DNA of 44,387 nucleotides, taken from the NCBI GenBank assembly GCA_029261305.1, contig JAJDBO010000265.1:1-44387 (forward strand), written 5' to 3'. The stretch comes from Nitrospirales bacterium. GTDB taxonomy: Bacteria > Nitrospirota > Nitrospiria > Nitrospirales > UBA8639. This document shows positions 29,700 to 40,451 of this stretch, in pieces; the stretch's first letter is position 1, and the number at the start of each line of letters is the position of its first letter. The position numbers were made by a program, and so were the translations under genes. Below the pieces are notes generated by a model. That model did not search any database. It was not told where the DNA came from and saw only the letters and a program-made list of their open reading frames with translations.

Positions 29700-30197
29700 A
29701 TGCACAAGGTGCTTCTATCCGTCCTTTTAAGTTTCATCATTGTTGCGGCAGGGTCCTCTGTCGCGTTTGCGTTGCAGTCCGGTGGTGTCGAAATCGGTGA
29801 TTTGGCAACCGGATCTGTCGTGGGTCAACCATTTAAAACCCTGGATGTTGACCTGACTTTTACCGCTATGTTGATTGGTGGCAAAAAGGTTTGGTATCCA
29901 CCGACCGCCATTCTGAGTTTGGTTAATACGGGGACTGGAGGGCGACCTTTAAGCCCAGTTCTCTTAAAGGTAACCAATAATTTGGATGGCGAGCATGGCT
30001 TTGATCTTAATGCAGATTCGGCCTTTGCTGCCCCGACTTCCATGCATGTGAAGATTACCTTGAAGCCAGGCGAAACCAAGTACATTGGGATTCCTATTAG
30101 TGATCTCACGTATGTGACTGCCAATGCTTTGCTAAACTATAAATGCCAGTTGCACGCTGCGCATTTAGGTGGTCAAATGTTGGTTCTTACGAAGTAA
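29700..30197 (+). CDS. Secreted cupredoxin-like protein resembling nitrosocyanin
   Basis: A 165-residue protein with a Sec signal peptide (cleavage near AFA at residue 25) and a single cupredoxin-like domain. Near the C-terminus is YKCQLHAAHLGGQMLVL with C149, H152, H155 and M160, the cysteine-histidine loop of a mononuclear copper site. Upstream, GEHGFDL supplies E98 and H99, and a KPGETKYIGI strand lies between. This pattern recalls nitrosocyanin, a red copper protein of ammonia oxidisers whose site uses one Glu, one Cys and two His, with a CQLH loop; I compare from memory. A type 1 site with Met is the alternative. The gene has its own GGGAGG and ends in a strong terminator. Confidence 0.68.
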   Translation: MHKVLLSVLLSFIIVAAGSSVAFALQSGGVEIGDLATGSVVGQPFKTLDVDLTFTAMLIGGKKVWYPPTAILSLVNTGTGGRPLSPVLLKVTNNLDGEHGFDLNADSAFAAPTSMHVKITLKPGETKYIGIPISDLTYVTANALLNYKCQLHAAHLGGQMLVLTK

Positions 30198-33276: not shown

Positions 33277-36200
33277 ATGTTTCAATTCAAACGTCATTCT
33301 ATGAAGCGACGTGCGTCCCTTACTTTGGGAAGCATGCTTGCCCTGTCGTTCCTCTTTCTTCCCTTAACTGGAGTTTTTGCGGAAACCCCAGAGTCCGAGG
33401 GTATGGTTCACAAAACGGGTATGAATCATCAAACTCCTGAATGGGCCGAGCGCCTCAAAGGGCAAACGATTGTCGAAAATTTCCATGAAGGTCGGGCTGA
33501 ACGTTCTGCGCTTGTTGAAAAACAGCATGAACGTTTGATGGAGCAAATGAAAAAAGAATCTTCTGGGTCAGATGACGGTGGTTTTAACAGTATGTCCATG
33601 ATGCATCAATATGGAGCGGGCAAAGGAAATTACCTGCTTCAATCTGATGGTGACATCGAACCGGTTTCAATGGGCGGTGGTGGAAAATGTCCAGCGACGG
33701 CTTCGGTGAAACATTACGACGTATCTGCCATCAATGTGGAAATTACATTGAACCAATGGCTGGATTACTATCCCGGCTACATGTATGTGCTCACCGACAA
33801 TATTGAAAAGGTCCGTGAGGAAGAAGCCAAGAACGCGGACGCCCGAGAAGTGGAAGGTCACAATGATCCAGGTGGTGTAAAAAACGGGATTCAAGGCCAA
33901 TACATCCAACCATTAGTGATTCGCGCCAACCAAGGGGATTGCGTGAAAGTGACTCTTCGCAATGCATTGGAGTTTGGTGAAGATGTCAGTCTGCACATCA
34001 ATGGTTCTAGCATGGTGGTGAGCAATACCGGCCAACCAGCGACCACCACCAATCCTGATGCCATTGCCTATGGAGCTGACGAAGAATGTGAAGAAAATTG
34101 TGAAACCAAACCTATTGAATTGGAATGGTATATTCACCCTTCCACACAAGAAGGTGGACGCCAATTCCACAGCTATAGTAATGACCGTGAGTTGACGGTC
34201 ATGGGGTTATTTGGGGTGTTTGTGGTGGAACCTGCTGGTTCCAACTATCTTGATCCTTTAGGACTTGGTCCCGCCACAGATATGCCTAGTGGTTGGCAAG
34301 CCATGATTCAAAATGGCATGGGCCCAGATTTTCGTGAGTTTGTTCTGATTTATCACGAAGTCGGTGATGAAGCCTTCCGTCCGGTGAACAAGCACGGAGA
34401 CTTCCTTCCACAACGTGATCCATTGACAGACGCCTATCGACCAGGTGCCAGGGCGCTAAACTACCGAAGCGAACCATTCGGCATCAACAATATGCACGTG
34501 CAACATGAGTACTTTGGATTCGAGGACGAATCCATGGCCTATAGCTCGTACACCTTCGGTGATGCGGGTCCAACCATTCCCCGAAGTTATTTAGGTGATC
34601 CAGCCAAGTTCCGTTTGGTGCATGGTGGTTCCGAGGTGTTCCATTCTCATCATCCACATGGTGGTTCGATTCGGTGGACTCGAAGCCCGCGGGCGGTTGA
34701 TGAAATGCCTATGTGGCATAAAGGGCAAAATGGTCCTTTAAAGTACCCATTGATTCGTGCAAAAACGGACCGCGTTGACGTTGAAGTCATTGGCCCGTCA
34801 GAGGCCTTGGACCTTGAAACGGAATGTGGTTCTGGTCTGTGTCAATATCTCGCTGGAGACTTCCTTTTCCATTGTCATGTCGCGCATCATTATGTGGCAG
34901 GGATGTGGGGATATTGGCGTGTGTACAACACAATCCAAGTTCCTGGAGTGGCCAATGATGTGATGGCTCCGCTCCGTGAGTTGCCAGATCGTTTAGGGCG
35001 TATCCCAAAACCTGTGACGTCTGATCAGTTAGTTGGAAAGACTGTCGATTGGTTTGGGAAAAAGTTCAACATTGTTCCAAAGGGAACGAAATCAGTGTGG
35101 GATACAAATCCTGCGACGATCAATATTCATGACTGGGTTGAAATGCAATTGCCGACTCGTGGTCTTCCTGGCCATACGGAAGATGAAATCGGTCAGTTGA
35201 AATCCTATGACGCAACCGTCGTGGATTGGACCTGGGATGGCAATCGTGCCATGAGTGAAAAAGAAGGCACGACTGATAATCCAAAATATCATCCTGAATG
35301 GCAGGGCTACGAAAAAGGAAAGCGGCGGTCCATTTGGTTTGAGCCAACAACTGGAAAAGTGGCTTGGCCGTGGTTGACCCCACATTTTGGAAAGAGAAAT
35401 CCATTTGCTCCTGATCGCAATCCAGCTCCGTGGTTGGAAATGATTCATAGGGACGAAGATGGTGGTTCGTCTGTTGAACCAGCCAAACCTGGTGAAAACG
35501 GTCGTTGGAGCCTGTGCCCAGATCGTGCTGGTTCCGAAAAGTATAATATCCACTTCATTAAGCTTCCGATCGAGTTGTCCGCAGCCCAAGGTGATCAACC
35601 AGCGGTGGTTGACCCGAACGGATTGTTGTATGTCTCTCATGATGAAGAAGAAGCCATTCGAGCCAATAATGACTTGAGAGTGCCGTTGGTGTTTCGTTCG
35701 AATATTTATGATTGCATGGACTGGATTTTGACCAGCGAATGGCTTGACGATGACGTGACGAATTTTCAATCGTCAAAGATCAACACGCACTTCCACTTTG
35801 TGCAATTTGATAATCAAGCCTCTGATGGTGTGATTTCAGGTTTCTCCTATGACCAATCGATGCGGCCCTTTACACAATTTGATAAGAAATCTGACAAAGG
35901 GTTGCCAGTTCCTATGAATGCCAAGTTGACGAAGCCTTCCCGCAAGGGTGACCGAACCATTCATGTGACGAATTCCGGTCAATACCATGTCGGAACCGTT
36001 TTGTTGGTTGGTGCGGATAACGTCAAAGGCAACGAAGTGATGCGAATTGTGTCCATTGATGGTGCTGGAGATGCCGGGGGTGCCGCCGCTGCTGCTCCTT
36101 CTAGTGCCGGTGGAGATTATGTGGTTCGACCTGGAGACACTCTGGGAGAGATCGCGACTTCTCATGGAACGTCCGTGGAAGCCTTGCAATCAATCAACGG

Positions 36201-38436
36201 TCTTTCAAATGCTGATTTGATTCATGTTGGACAAAAACTCCAAATCCCTGGCTCCGGTGGCAGTGGCCATGGCGAACCCGTGGCAGCCGTTGGTGGCCCT
36301 GGAACGCTTACCTTTAAAAAACCATTGAAACATGACCATCCAGTTGGCGATATCGTCACGGTGGAATTTGTTCGCCAGCGTTTCTGGGTGGATGCAGACG
36401 TGGGGTCAGTCTTTTGTCATGACCATGCGTTTGGTGGAACCACGTGGCCACATGGTGCGGTGTGTTCCTTCTTGATCGAGCCCTTTGGTTCAACTTGGCA
36501 TGATCCTATTACCGGTGAAGCCAAACGAACTGGTCCGGTGATGGATATTCATACGATTGAACCAGTTGGATATGGCGTGAGCGGAAGTTTCCGTGAATTG
36601 ATGGTCCAAATCATGGATACCGTTCCTCATACGGTTAACGTGGTGACGGCCGGGAATCCTCCTGGTCAGCCAATTGAAGTGGCGTTGGAAGCCGGACGTA
36701 CCGTGTCATTCCAAATGCCGCCGAACGAATCGATTAAAATGACGCCAATGCCGTTCCTTAACGGTGGTACACATACGACGGGTGGCGCCCTGAATTTCCG
36801 GGCCGAACCTTTCGCGCAACGGTTAGCCAATAATCCAGAGACTTCGCAGGTTTTCAGCAGCACAACTCATGGTGATCCGAGCACGATTACCCTGCGAGCA
36901 TACCTGGGGGATTCAATTGTGTTCCGGCTGATTGATGTGACCATGAATGAAAGTAATGTCTTTACTGTTTCTGGTCATGCTTTCTTGACGGAACGATATG
37001 CGGGTGATGCCAATCGAAAGAATTCTATTCATATTGGTATCGCAGAACGATATGACCTGGTGGTGGCTCAGGCCGGCGGCCCGAGACTGCAACCTGGGGA
37101 TTACATGTATTTCAATGGTCGGAGTTCAAAACTGTCCGAGGGTTCCTGGGGAGTTATTCGGGTGCTGGAAAATGAAGTGTCCGATTTAAAGCCATTACCG
37201 AATGCCGGTTATGGTGCCCAAGGAATTAAGAAGCCTTTGCCGGTGTGTCCATCCGATGCTCCTGTGAAGAACTTTAATGTGGTGTCTATCGACTTCCCGC
37301 AAATGGCCTTTAATCCAAACGTGGAAGAAGCCATTGAAGTAGACTTTGAACGAAAAATTGAAGTGAAGAATCCAGATGCCAAGATTTATATTCTTGAAGA
37401 AGAAGCAGCGAAGGTCTCTGGAGATTTCCAACCTATGCCATTAACCATTCGGGCCAATGTTGGTGATTGCCTTAAAGTGAAGCTGACCAACAAGATGAAG
37501 GAAAGCCGTGCTTCCTTCTCAGCCTTTAGTTTGGCGTTTGATCCCAAGGATTCCCAAGGCGTGAACCTCGGAAACAATCCTGGAGATCAGACGATTGCAC
37601 CAGGTGAAAGCCGCACCTATACCTACTATGCGGATCCCTTCTTTGGTGAAACGCAATCGCTAGTGTGGGATTGGGGGAATGTGGCCATGAATCCGCGTAA
37701 TGGGTTGTTTGGTGGTATTGTCATCGGTCCAAAGGGTTCACAATATCGTGATCCTAAGACCGGTGCTGATATTTCATTAAAGAATAGCTGGGTCGCGGAT
37801 GTCATTGTGGATCGGACGGTACCTGGTCAAGCGCATCGTGCCAATTATCGTGATGTGGCCCTGTTCTTCCAGGACGAAGACAATATTATCGGGACCAGCT
37901 TTATGCCATATGTTCAAAATGTGGCCGGTCTCATTGGGGTGAATTACCGAAATGAACCCTACTTATATCGCGAAGAGCAAGGGTGCTCATTGGGTAAGAT
38001 GTTCCAACCATGTAATGTGGATGACCCTGCTGACCCAGCGACGCCATTGATTGAGGCCCATGCCGGTGATCCTGTTCGGATCCATGTGTTTGGTGCCAGC
38101 AATGAACAAAATGGTATGTTTACTCTAGAAAAACATGAATGGCCGATTGAGCCATTTATGGGTGGGGCTGACCAAATCAGCGTTGTGGAATTTGCAGGGT
38201 CTGAGGGGATTGATATCTTTGTCTCTTCAGCGGGTGGTCCGTATGCCATGAAGGGTGATTATGTGTATAGCAATGCGCGCTTGCCATATTCCCAATCGGG
38301 GCAATGGGGCTATTTCCGAGTTCTGTCCAAGAACGACCAAAGAATTCTTCCGCTTGGTGGGGCTGCTCCTGGAGTAAAAGAAGCACAGGTGCCCCAGTCT
38401 TCAGAGGGTAGCGTTCGGCCCATTTCGTTTAAATAA
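33277..38436 (+). CDS. Giant secreted multicopper oxidase with internal LysM domain
   Basis: The 1719-residue protein has a Sec signal peptide (cleavage near VFA-ET, residue 36) and several cupredoxin domains. Copper ligands are complete. H456-x2-H459-x-H461-G and H532-C533-H534-x3-H538-x4-M543 give the type 1 and half the trinuclear site; H838/H840 (HFHF) and H1048/H1050 (CHDH) give the rest. In laccases the two H-x-H pairs come first, so the order is permuted here. A LysM domain (about residues 947-992, between Ala/Ser/Gly linkers) is inserted between H840 and H1048. Two later copies of the type 1 module (about residues 1274-1296 and 1660-1682) have lost their ligands. AAGGAGG precedes the ATG. 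Metal oxidation (Mn, Fe or Cu) is inferred, not shown. Confidence 0.88.
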   Translation: MFQFKRHSMKRRASLTLGSMLALSFLFLPLTGVFAETPESEGMVHKTGMNHQTPEWAERLKGQTIVENFHEGRAERSALVEKQHERLMEQMKKESSGSDDGGFNSMSMMHQYGAGKGNYLLQSDGDIEPVSMGGGGKCPATASVKHYDVSAINVEITLNQWLDYYPGYMYVLTDNIEKVREEEAKNADAREVEGHNDPGGVKNGIQGQYIQPLVIRANQGDCVKVTLRNALEFGEDVSLHINGSSMVVSNTGQPATTTNPDAIAYGADEECEENCETKPIELEWYIHPSTQEGGRQFHSYSNDRELTVMGLFGVFVVEPAGSNYLDPLGLGPATDMPSGWQAMIQNGMGPDFREFVLIYHEVGDEAFRPVNKHGDFLPQRDPLTDAYRPGARALNYRSEPFGINNMHVQHEYFGFEDESMAYSSYTFGDAGPTIPRSYLGDPAKFRLVHGGSEVFHSHHPHGGSIRWTRSPRAVDEMPMWHKGQNGPLKYPLIRAKTDRVDVEVIGPSEALDLETECGSGLCQYLAGDFLFHCHVAHHYVAGMWGYWRVYNTIQVPGVANDVMAPLRELPDRLGRIPKPVTSDQLVGKTVDWFGKKFNIVPKGTKSVWDTNPATINIHDWVEMQLPTRGLPGHTEDEIGQLKSYDATVVDWTWDGNRAMSEKEGTTDNPKYHPEWQGYEKGKRRSIWFEPTTGKVAWPWLTPHFGKRNPFAPDRNPAPWLEMIHRDEDGGSSVEPAKPGENGRWSLCPDRAGSEKYNIHFIKLPIELSAAQGDQPAVVDPNGLLYVSHDEEEAIRANNDLRVPLVFRSNIYDCMDWILTSEWLDDDVTNFQSSKINTHFHFVQFDNQASDGVISGFSYDQSMRPFTQFDKKSDKGLPVPMNAKLTKPSRKGDRTIHVTNSGQYHVGTVLLVGADNVKGNEVMRIVSIDGAGDAGGAAAAAPSSAGGDYVVRPGDTLGEIATSHGTSVEALQSINGLSNADLIHVGQKLQIPGSGGSGHGEPVAAVGGPGTLTFKKPLKHDHPVGDIVTVEFVRQRFWVDADVGSVFCHDHAFGGTTWPHGAVCSFLIEPFGSTWHDPITGEAKRTGPVMDIHTIEPVGYGVSGSFRELMVQIMDTVPHTVNVVTAGNPPGQPIEVALEAGRTVSFQMPPNESIKMTPMPFLNGGTHTTGGALNFRAEPFAQRLANNPETSQVFSSTTHGDPSTITLRAYLGDSIVFRLIDVTMNESNVFTVSGHAFLTERYAGDANRKNSIHIGIAERYDLVVAQAGGPRLQPGDYMYFNGRSSKLSEGSWGVIRVLENEVSDLKPLPNAGYGAQGIKKPLPVCPSDAPVKNFNVVSIDFPQMAFNPNVEEAIEVDFERKIEVKNPDAKIYILEEEAAKVSGDFQPMPLTIRANVGDCLKVKLTNKMKESRASFSAFSLAFDPKDSQGVNLGNNPGDQTIAPGESRTYTYYADPFFGETQSLVWDWGNVAMNPRNGLFGGIVIGPKGSQYRDPKTGADISLKNSWVADVIVDRTVPGQAHRANYRDVALFFQDEDNIIGTSFMPYVQNVAGLIGVNYRNEPYLYREEQGCSLGKMFQPCNVDDPADPATPLIEAHAGDPVRIHVFGASNEQNGMFTLEKHEWPIEPFMGGADQISVVEFAGSEGIDIFVSSAGGPYAMKGDYVYSNARLPYSQSGQWGYFRVLSKNDQRILPLGGAAPGVKEAQVPQSSEGSVRPISFK

Positions 38437-38472
38437 CGTTTGGTTCGATAGGTTATCATCGAAAGCGAATGA

Positions 38473-38507
38473 CGGGGAAGCCGAGCTTCGGCTTCCCCGT
38501 TTTTTTT
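38473..38507 (+). terminator. Rho-independent terminator after the multicopper oxidase
   Basis: CGGGGAAGCCGA (38473-38484) pairs with TCGGCTTCCCCG, followed by eight Ts. The near-perfect stem begins about 36 bases after the oxidase stop, so the oxidase is probably transcribed alone and the cupredoxin genes downstream need their own promoter. Confidence 0.9.
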
Positions 38508-38602
38508 GAAGAGTATCTTTAGGCAATCGTTCCTCGTATATTCAATAAGAATATGGAATGAGAGACGAGCATCAAGCGACGAATTCGGAGAGGGAGGAAT
38601 TC

Positions 38603-39520
38603 ATGAAGCGTTGGACATTGGCGTTGGTGGCGGGCATGTGGGTGATTGGAATAGCCTTGCCAAGTTTTTCTTATGAGGAAGTGTCCGTCTCGAATGGAGG
38701 AACCATTCGTGGGAAAGTGACGATCACGGGAAACACGCCTAGGCCGATGGCATTCAATCTTGTGACGATTCCAGATGCGGTGTATTGCGGGAGAATCTCC
38801 ACCGGCACTGGTTGGCGAATTGTAGAAGATTTTATTATTGGCAAGGATGGGAGTCTCAAGGATGTCGTGATTATGTTAGACGGCATTAAAAAAGGGAAGT
38901 CGTTTGATTTGCCTAAAGTCAGAGTTGATGCGATTGATTGTGACTTTCTTCCTTTCATCAATGTCTTAAAAGACAAAGAAGAAATCACTGTTATCAACAT
39001 GGATCCTATTGAGCATGATATTCAAGGATATGAAACCGCTCGAGAACGGGGAGCCAGAATCTTGTTTAATCGGCCCTTACCGATGAACCCATTTCATAAG
39101 GTGCTTGGGATGATGAATAGTCATAAACATATGGCTGGAAAACCCATGGTGGAAAAGATTCGTCTTCGGAAAGGTCGAAATATTTTTGTGATGCAATGTG
39201 GATTTCATCCATATATGTTTTCCTGGGGAGTGGTGGTCAAAAATCCCTACTATGCGATTACCAAAGAAAATGGAGAGTTTGAAATATCTGATGTGCCTCC
39301 TGGACAATATATCTTAAAGGTCTGGCATGCGGGCATGAAACAATATCTTGAACGACCGGTTACTGTAACACCGAATGGAGCCCTTTCGGAAAATTTTGAA
39401 TATGTCTCAAACTCTGGTCGTCGGAGCGTCCATGAAATCGCTGATAATCCACGGTTTGGGATGGAGTTGCTTGGTGAAGGGGTTGAAATTGTTCCATCGC
39501 TTCGGCATCAAAAATTCTAG
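38603..39520 (+). CDS. Secreted cupredoxin with C-terminal carboxypeptidase-regulatory-like domain, copy 1
   Basis: The ATG at 38603 is chosen because GGGAGG lies just before it and it opens directly into a signal peptide (MKRWTLALVAG, cleavage near FSYEE); an in-frame ATG at 38558 would place 15 polar residues ahead. The 305-residue protein has the four ligands of a type 1 copper site: H138 in NMDPIEHDIQ, and C199, H202 and M205 in MQCGFHPYM. That C-x2-H-P-x-M loop is the short loop of amicyanin. Before the copper loop the chain has GKVTITG and YCGRISTGTGWR. After it, a small domain (GEFEISDVPPGQYILKVWHAGM) resembles carboxypeptidase regulatory-like domains. It is probably a periplasmic electron carrier. 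Confidence 0.75.
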   Translation: MKRWTLALVAGMWVIGIALPSFSYEEVSVSNGGTIRGKVTITGNTPRPMAFNLVTIPDAVYCGRISTGTGWRIVEDFIIGKDGSLKDVVIMLDGIKKGKSFDLPKVRVDAIDCDFLPFINVLKDKEEITVINMDPIEHDIQGYETARERGARILFNRPLPMNPFHKVLGMMNSHKHMAGKPMVEKIRLRKGRNIFVMQCGFHPYMFSWGVVVKNPYYAITKENGEFEISDVPPGQYILKVWHAGMKQYLERPVTVTPNGALSENFEYVSNSGRRSVHEIADNPRFGMELLGEGVEIVPSLRHQKF

Positions 39521-39545: not shown

Positions 39546-40451
39546 ATGCGTATTCTTGTATTCACTTTTCTTGTCAATTTCGTTCTGTTCCCTGGGCTGA
39601 TCTTGGCCTATGAAGTGGTGGAGGTCAAAGATGGTGGATCCATTCAGGGAACGGTGACCCTTTCTGGTGAGGTGCCAGATCCCAAGGCCTATAATTTGGT
39701 GACGTTCCCCGATCCGGAATATTGCGGGCGTATTTCGAATGGAAACGGGTGGCGGCTACTCCACGATTTTTTTGTGAATGAGCAGCAGCAAGTAAAAAAT
39801 GTGGTGGTGTTGTTAGAGGGTGTGAAGGCCGGAAAAGTGTTTTCTCTTTCGGTTCCGCGGATCGAAGCCCAGGACTGTCGATTCCTGCCATTCACGACTG
39901 TTGTGAGAAGCGGGCATGGCGTTGAAGTCGTCAACATGGACCCTGTCATGCATGATATTCAAGCCTACGAAACCTCCGTGGTCACTGGAACCAGAGTCCT
40001 TTTTAATTCGCCCTTGCCTTTTAATGAACGACATCATCGTGGGAATCTTCATGCCATGCATGATCACAATCCTGGCGAGTCCTTAGTTCGACAGTTTCAA
40101 TTGAGTAAAAAACGTCGAACATTTGTGATGCAATGCGGGTTTCATGCCTACATGGAAAGTTGGGCCATTTCCGTGGAAAATCCTTATTACGTGATGACTG
40201 ATGACCAAGGCCACTTTTCAATCGAGAATGTTCCCCCTGGAACGTATGACCTTCGTGCGTGGCATCCTGGCATTAAGCCAGTGATCAAGCAGCCGGTCAC
40301 CATTGGACCAAGCAAAGAATTAGTCGTGAATTTTACGTTGCCCTCTCCAGGTCGTAAAAAGACGGCGCTGACGGTTCGAACTCCTCCTCGATTTACTCCT
40401 GCCGCATTGGGCCGTGAATTTACCATTGAACCAATTCTAGAGCGACAATAA
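39546..40451 (+). CDS. Secreted cupredoxin with C-terminal carboxypeptidase-regulatory-like domain, copy 2
   Basis: A paralogue of the preceding gene, 25 bases downstream, with the same layout over 301 residues: signal peptide ending near ILAYEV, a GSIQGTVTLSG strand, the PDPEYCGRISNGNGWR segment, a cupredoxin half, and a C-terminal GHFSIENVPPGTYDLRAWHPGIK domain. Its type 1 copper ligands are also complete: H136 in NMDPVMHDIQ, C197, H200 and M203 in MQCGFHAYM. Copy 1 has Pro after the loop histidine and copy 2 has Ala, a change that could shift redox potential. Tandem duplication followed by divergence is the simplest history. The weak ribosome binding site and short gap suggest co-translation with copy 1. 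Confidence 0.75.
   Translation: MRILVFTFLVNFVLFPGLILAYEVVEVKDGGSIQGTVTLSGEVPDPKAYNLVTFPDPEYCGRISNGNGWRLLHDFFVNEQQQVKNVVVLLEGVKAGKVFSLSVPRIEAQDCRFLPFTTVVRSGHGVEVVNMDPVMHDIQAYETSVVTGTRVLFNSPLPFNERHHRGNLHAMHDHNPGESLVRQFQLSKKRRTFVMQCGFHAYMESWAISVENPYYVMTDDQGHFSIENVPPGTYDLRAWHPGIKPVIKQPVTIGPSKELVVNFTLPSPGRKKTALTVRTPPRFTPAALGREFTIEPILERQ

Follow-up and report, generated by a model that had tools for sequence, protein, structure and literature searches.

The closest described relatives of the protein considered here are large multicopper oxidases of the MnxG type. In MnxG, copper motifs A and B lie toward the C-terminus and motifs C and D toward the N-terminus, opposite to the other oxidases compared, a point for which older work is cited (PMC3618234). 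In all bacterial six-domain oxidases analyzed, domain 2 contains the mononuclear site and meets domain 3 at the trinuclear site; ceruloplasmin has its trinuclear site at the junction of domains 1 and 6 (PMC3600357). MnxG-like oxidases of nitrite oxidizers are already in print: a periplasmic MnxG-like multicopper protein is common to Nitrospina gracilis and Candidatus Nitrospira defluvii, with its gene placed in the NXR cluster and a role for Mn(III) in shielding the cell against reactive oxygen proposed (PMC3578206). In addition, mnxG has been reported in two Nitrospirota metagenome-assembled genomes (MAGs) (PMC10367259), and putative MnxG, among others, has been reported in nitrifier MAGs (PMC11995701). 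Here we describe an oxidase gene of this family on a Nitrospirales contig (JAJDBO010000265.1, assembly GCA_029261305.1), positions 1 to 44,387 of which constitute the window. The product is probably a periplasmic six-domain MnxG-type multicopper oxidase with its type 1 (T1) copper in domain 2 and its trinuclear site between domains 2 and 3, most likely oxidizing Mn(II) and tethered through a LysM domain. The gene, its export signal and its copper motifs are as follows.

33277..38436, + strand, MnxG-like multicopper oxidase of 1719 amino acids (open reading frame)
33277..33381, + strand, probable signal peptide, residues 1-35, ending LTGVFA and followed by E (basic start, hydrophobic peak; the cleavage site is our reading)
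34642..34659, + strand, HSHHPH, residues 456-461: H456 a ligand of T1, H459 and H461 of the trinuclear site (MnxG has HVFHYH at this place in the alignment)
34870..34905, + strand, HCHVAHHYVAGM, residues 532-543: trinuclear ligands H532 and H534, T1 ligands C533, H538 and M543 (aligned to HCHLYPAFGIGM of PDB 9bxa, an H340A mutant)
35788..35796, + strand, HFH, residues 838-840: trinuclear ligands of domain 3 (motif scan, alignments)
36418..36426, + strand, HDH, residues 1048-1050: trinuclear ligands of domain 3 (motif scan, alignments)

With four copper motifs, eight trinuclear histidines and the Cys/His/His/Met set of a T1 site, the sequence is that of a multicopper oxidase; the division of the ligands between T1 and trinuclear sites is one that we take from established knowledge of these enzymes. 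The order HxxHxH, HCHxxxHxxxxM, HxH, HxH, the reverse of that in laccases, is as the original prediction described it, and its coordinates were exact, the H456 codon beginning at 34642 and the H1050 codon ending at 36426. HxxHxH (456) and HCHxxxHxxxxM (532) each occur once, and the latter arose in none of 20000 shuffles of the oxidase sequence, excluding chance. Of the HxH occurrences (456, 459, 532, 838, 1019 and 1048), the one at 1019 had been rightly omitted, as it sits within an inserted domain. The top hydrophobic peak of the protein falls at the N-terminus, in windows starting at residues 13-17 after a basic segment, and together with the plausible cleavage site this makes export to the periplasm likely. 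Ahead of domain 1, residues 105-113 (window 33589-33615) form a Met/His-rich stretch, SMSMMHQYG, a possible copper-binding segment.

All eight trinuclear histidines and four T1 ligands, whose presence had been claimed at the outset, are invariant in every alignment examined: in 121/121 rows comprising the query and 120 close homologues, in 12/12 sequences of a small set that includes five distant relatives, and in 112/112 rows of a wider alignment, A3. The close set represents 120 of 1184 matches and a set seeded with a distant relative represents 120 of 329; A3 drew on part of both and holds the query plus 35 close and 76 distant-seeded sequences, the latter 31-71% identical to the query (63/76 below 50%). 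The five distant relatives, taken from genome sequence (L085-L089, with L086 cut by a contig end), keep the motif order of the query. The nearest genome relative found was a Nitrospirae MAG (L001, 93% identity), and relatives at E 1e-10 were present in 164 of the 395 genomes searched from the phylum. As this phylum includes major nitrite oxidizers, the breadth of that distribution is the reason the oxidase matters. Three close homologues (L002, L014 and L021) lie on contigs labeled Nitrospinota or Nitrosomonas, perhaps through mis-binning or gene transfer.

The order of the motifs had been presented as an oddity, and it does differ from that of laccases, with the canonical layout of laccase and ascorbate oxidase, in which the HxH pairs lie toward the N-terminus and HxxHxH and HCH toward the C-terminus, absent here. 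Within the MnxG-type family, however, the order is the norm and nothing new. The original prediction was right that the motifs of MnxG-type enzymes are likewise in an unusual order, both from the published order and from the best solved match by sequence and fold, MnxG of Bacillus sp. PL-12 (PDB 9bxa, Mnx H340A complex), which has the same motif order. Neither finding named in advance as speaking against the prediction arose: the closest homologues are no canonical-order laccases, and the structure model described below runs colinear with MnxG. A lineage-specific rearrangement of a canonical laccase, and with it a new site architecture, is hardly credible: the order is unlike that of laccases, as such an event would produce, but the same order is published for MnxG, the same ligands occupy all A3 rows and distant relatives are alike.

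On superposition, the structure predicted for residues 135-1085 follows residues 1-612 of MnxG colinearly, and this model supports a copper site at the seam (our term) of domains 2 and 3. The order would then differ from that of laccases only because the site uses this seam and not the one between first and last domains; in the six-cupredoxin ring of ceruloplasmin the corresponding seam is that of domains 1 and 6. The four motif segments lie in model blocks of moderate confidence, with a mean predicted local distance difference test (pLDDT) score of 68-79. The C-terminal part of the oxidase matches MnxG by sequence, and by structure only in a poor model. Once loaded with copper, the T1 site in domain 2 would take single electrons from the substrate and pass them across the HCH bridge to the trinuclear site, held by two histidine pairs of domain 2 and both HxH pairs of domain 3, where O2 would be reduced to water. 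The substrate would most likely be Mn(II), converted to Mn(III) or Mn oxide and perhaps thereby protecting the cell from reactive oxygen, while the LysM domain, with a flexible linker on either side, would anchor the oxidase to peptidoglycan. Mn(II) oxidation, if true, would tie nitrification to manganese cycling.

Several observations weigh against this assignment. Identity to 9bxa over the superposed part is 26%, and the stretch following HxxHxH (residues 467-499) is poorly modeled. The NCBIfam MnxG equivalog NF041487 gives the oxidase 111 bits, below its cut-off of 3100, and of 21 genomes of relatives searched with that model, only 4 gave a match at E 1e-10 and none exceeded the cut-off. 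MnxG of Bacillus works with, and needs, MnxE and MnxF; no such partner was recognized among the neighbors searched, a search that took in part of the small open reading frames and made no comparison with MnxE/F sequences. Manganese oxidation, according to PMC11995701, is not yet demonstrated for the nitrifier families studied; four of our loci (L004, L005, L010 and L021) bear the OFTM naming of that paper. 

With the N. gracilis and Ca. N. defluvii protein, likened here by its description, the oxidase would share a periplasmic placement, conservation in nitrite oxidizers and the proposed Mn(III) and reactive oxygen role. That gene belongs to the NXR cluster; no NXR gene was recognized among 19 window open reading frames, other than the oxidase, that were scanned with Pfam.

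Between its two HxH motifs, the oxidase carries the following features.

35911..36360, + strand, insert of beta strands in domain 3, made up of roughly residues 879-929 and 1009-1028 (from motif spacing and model strands; the limits are our reading)
36118..36249, + strand, LysM domain, residues 948-991, nested in the beta insert (Pfam PF01476, E 1.4e-15)
36415..36465, + strand, C1047 and C1063, a probable disulfide beside HDH (co-occurrence in A3)

The two HxH motifs stand 207 residues apart in the query, 128-133 in six relatives lacking LysM, 97-100 in L087-L089 and 68 in L085 and L086. In MnxG 9bxa the distance is only about 45 by our count from the alignment, and that protein therefore has neither beta insert nor LysM. 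The five distant relatives hinted that the beta insert might be specific to Nitrospirales, an idea overturned by the many A3 rows that carry a similar insert. The LysM domain itself scores 57.4 bits, above the Pfam cut-off of 20.9, and is modeled as strand-helix-helix-strand in a block of pLDDT 73-90 flanked by two low-confidence linkers. It is found at one shared position in 24 of the 121 close sequences, which rules out an assembly error, and every carrier whose source is named is labeled Nitrospirae or Nitrospirales. Among the matches listed, none of 118 further proteins (P0132-P0249) bore the Pfam LysM label, and a pattern search of these gave a single match, judged not to be a LysM.

On the tree, the presence of LysM takes 8 parsimony changes, whereas 200 shuffles of the labels required 22.2 on average and never fewer than 19, indicating that the domain follows the tree but has changed repeatedly. 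Unbroken full-length matches like the query occur in at least 19 genomes, at least 10 of which also hold another copy with a match interrupted where the LysM domain would be, and at least 2 more have truncated second copies. We suggest, as a reading that is less likely than not, that the LysM anchor between the HxH pairs makes this a natural wall-tethered oxidase, that the anchor was repeatedly gained or lost while LysM-less copies coexist, and that nitrite oxidizers thus hold wall and free periplasmic forms, each beside a blue-copper partner. An artificial fusion of laccase to a LysM anchor has been described (PMC2754439), while no description of a natural LysM oxidase was found among the literature matches listed. 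The putative MnxG proteins of the Nitrospirota and nitrifier MAGs come from the same phylum, and the cited parts of those reports (PMC10367259, PMC11995701), including the main text of the former, make no mention of a LysM insertion. The nested domain offers a simple handle on whether the location of the enzyme in the envelope matters.

Downstream of the oxidase lie a terminator and two genes for blue-copper-like proteins.

38471..38509, + strand, intrinsic terminator just 3' of the oxidase gene (14-pair stem and T run)
38558..39520, + strand, cupA, blue-copper-like protein with a carboxypeptidase-regulatory-like domain (Pfam; H153, C214, H217, M220)
39546..40451, + strand, cupB, adjacent paralogue of cupA (same motif, 43% identity to cupA)

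A terminator-like hairpin stands at the matching place in 27/27 related loci, although the arms are short in some, with just 6 exact pairs for L014, L019 and L025 and 8 for L027. With so strong a terminator between oxidase and cupA, a shared transcript is not assured. The stem is conserved in sequence: its exact pattern recurs in 39 of the 89 loci retrieved, with some places represented twice, and a search of 12 whole genomes found it in 11, as a single occurrence in 9 and as two in the other 2. In L021 and L028, the two arms of the hairpin have changed in a matching way. In every locus with the oxidase 3' end and enough DNA (27/27), cupA lies less than 500 bp downstream. The raw count is 27/28, L010 being left out since its contig ends inside the oxidase gene; L020 and L026 likewise lack the 3' end. 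Across 59 aligned CupA, CupB and third-copy sequences, C214, H217 and M220 are present in all and H153 in 48, a T1-copper pattern that accompanies a carboxypeptidase-regulatory-like domain, and the 11 sequences without H153 are the more distant third copy. Neither this conserved copper-protein neighbor nor the natural LysM variant was found described in the parts of the literature searched.

The copper-protein-like neighbors also bear on other substrates. CueO and PcoA oxidize Cu(I), and a cuprous oxidase for periplasmic copper tolerance would suit both these neighbors and the Met/His-rich N-terminal segment, given that M.M.H occurs within the first 170 residues of 102/131 close sequences, in contrast to 11/118 others within the first 260. 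We nevertheless regard this as unlikely, since the CueO and CopA models match very weakly (E 0.33 and 0.0028) and the Met-rich stretch precedes domain 1, away from the T1 site. Alternatively, reduced CupA or CupB might feed the T1 site, making the oxidase a periplasmic electron sink for a small copper carrier, as the constant proximity of cupA and its T1-like residues would allow; the conserved terminator separates the two genes, however, CupA could instead serve as a copper chaperone, and the only PDB folds that its profile hit were carboxypeptidase-regulatory-like, leaving this quite improbable. Periplasmic Fe(II) oxidation in the manner of ceruloplasmin appears equally doubtful, as MnxG is clearly nearer by sequence and fold and no iron permease was recognized among the ten neighbors scanned. 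Oxidation of Mn(II) by an MnxG-type enzyme thus remains the assignment that we prefer.

Upstream, Pfam identifies genes for a DUF192 protein, a Rieske protein, an I42 inhibitor and a class IV aminotransferase, some or all of which are present in L001-L020 and L025, including the LysM-less L019 and L025. They were not seen in L021-L024 and L026-L030; in several of these loci the sequence extends upstream only a short way or not at all. At window positions 29700-30197, a small protein with a signal-like start and a C-terminal cupredoxin-like C-x-L-H (our reading), and no Pfam match, lies upstream of the oxidase in most loci having upstream DNA. The third blue-copper-like copy stands further downstream in 11 loci, for example at L001:21318-22199. 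Finally, the residues at C1047 and C1063 of the oxidase are both cysteine in 18/112 A3 rows and never one alone, a joint occurrence that suggests a disulfide. The pair is independent of LysM, as LysM-less rows such as P0007 carry it.
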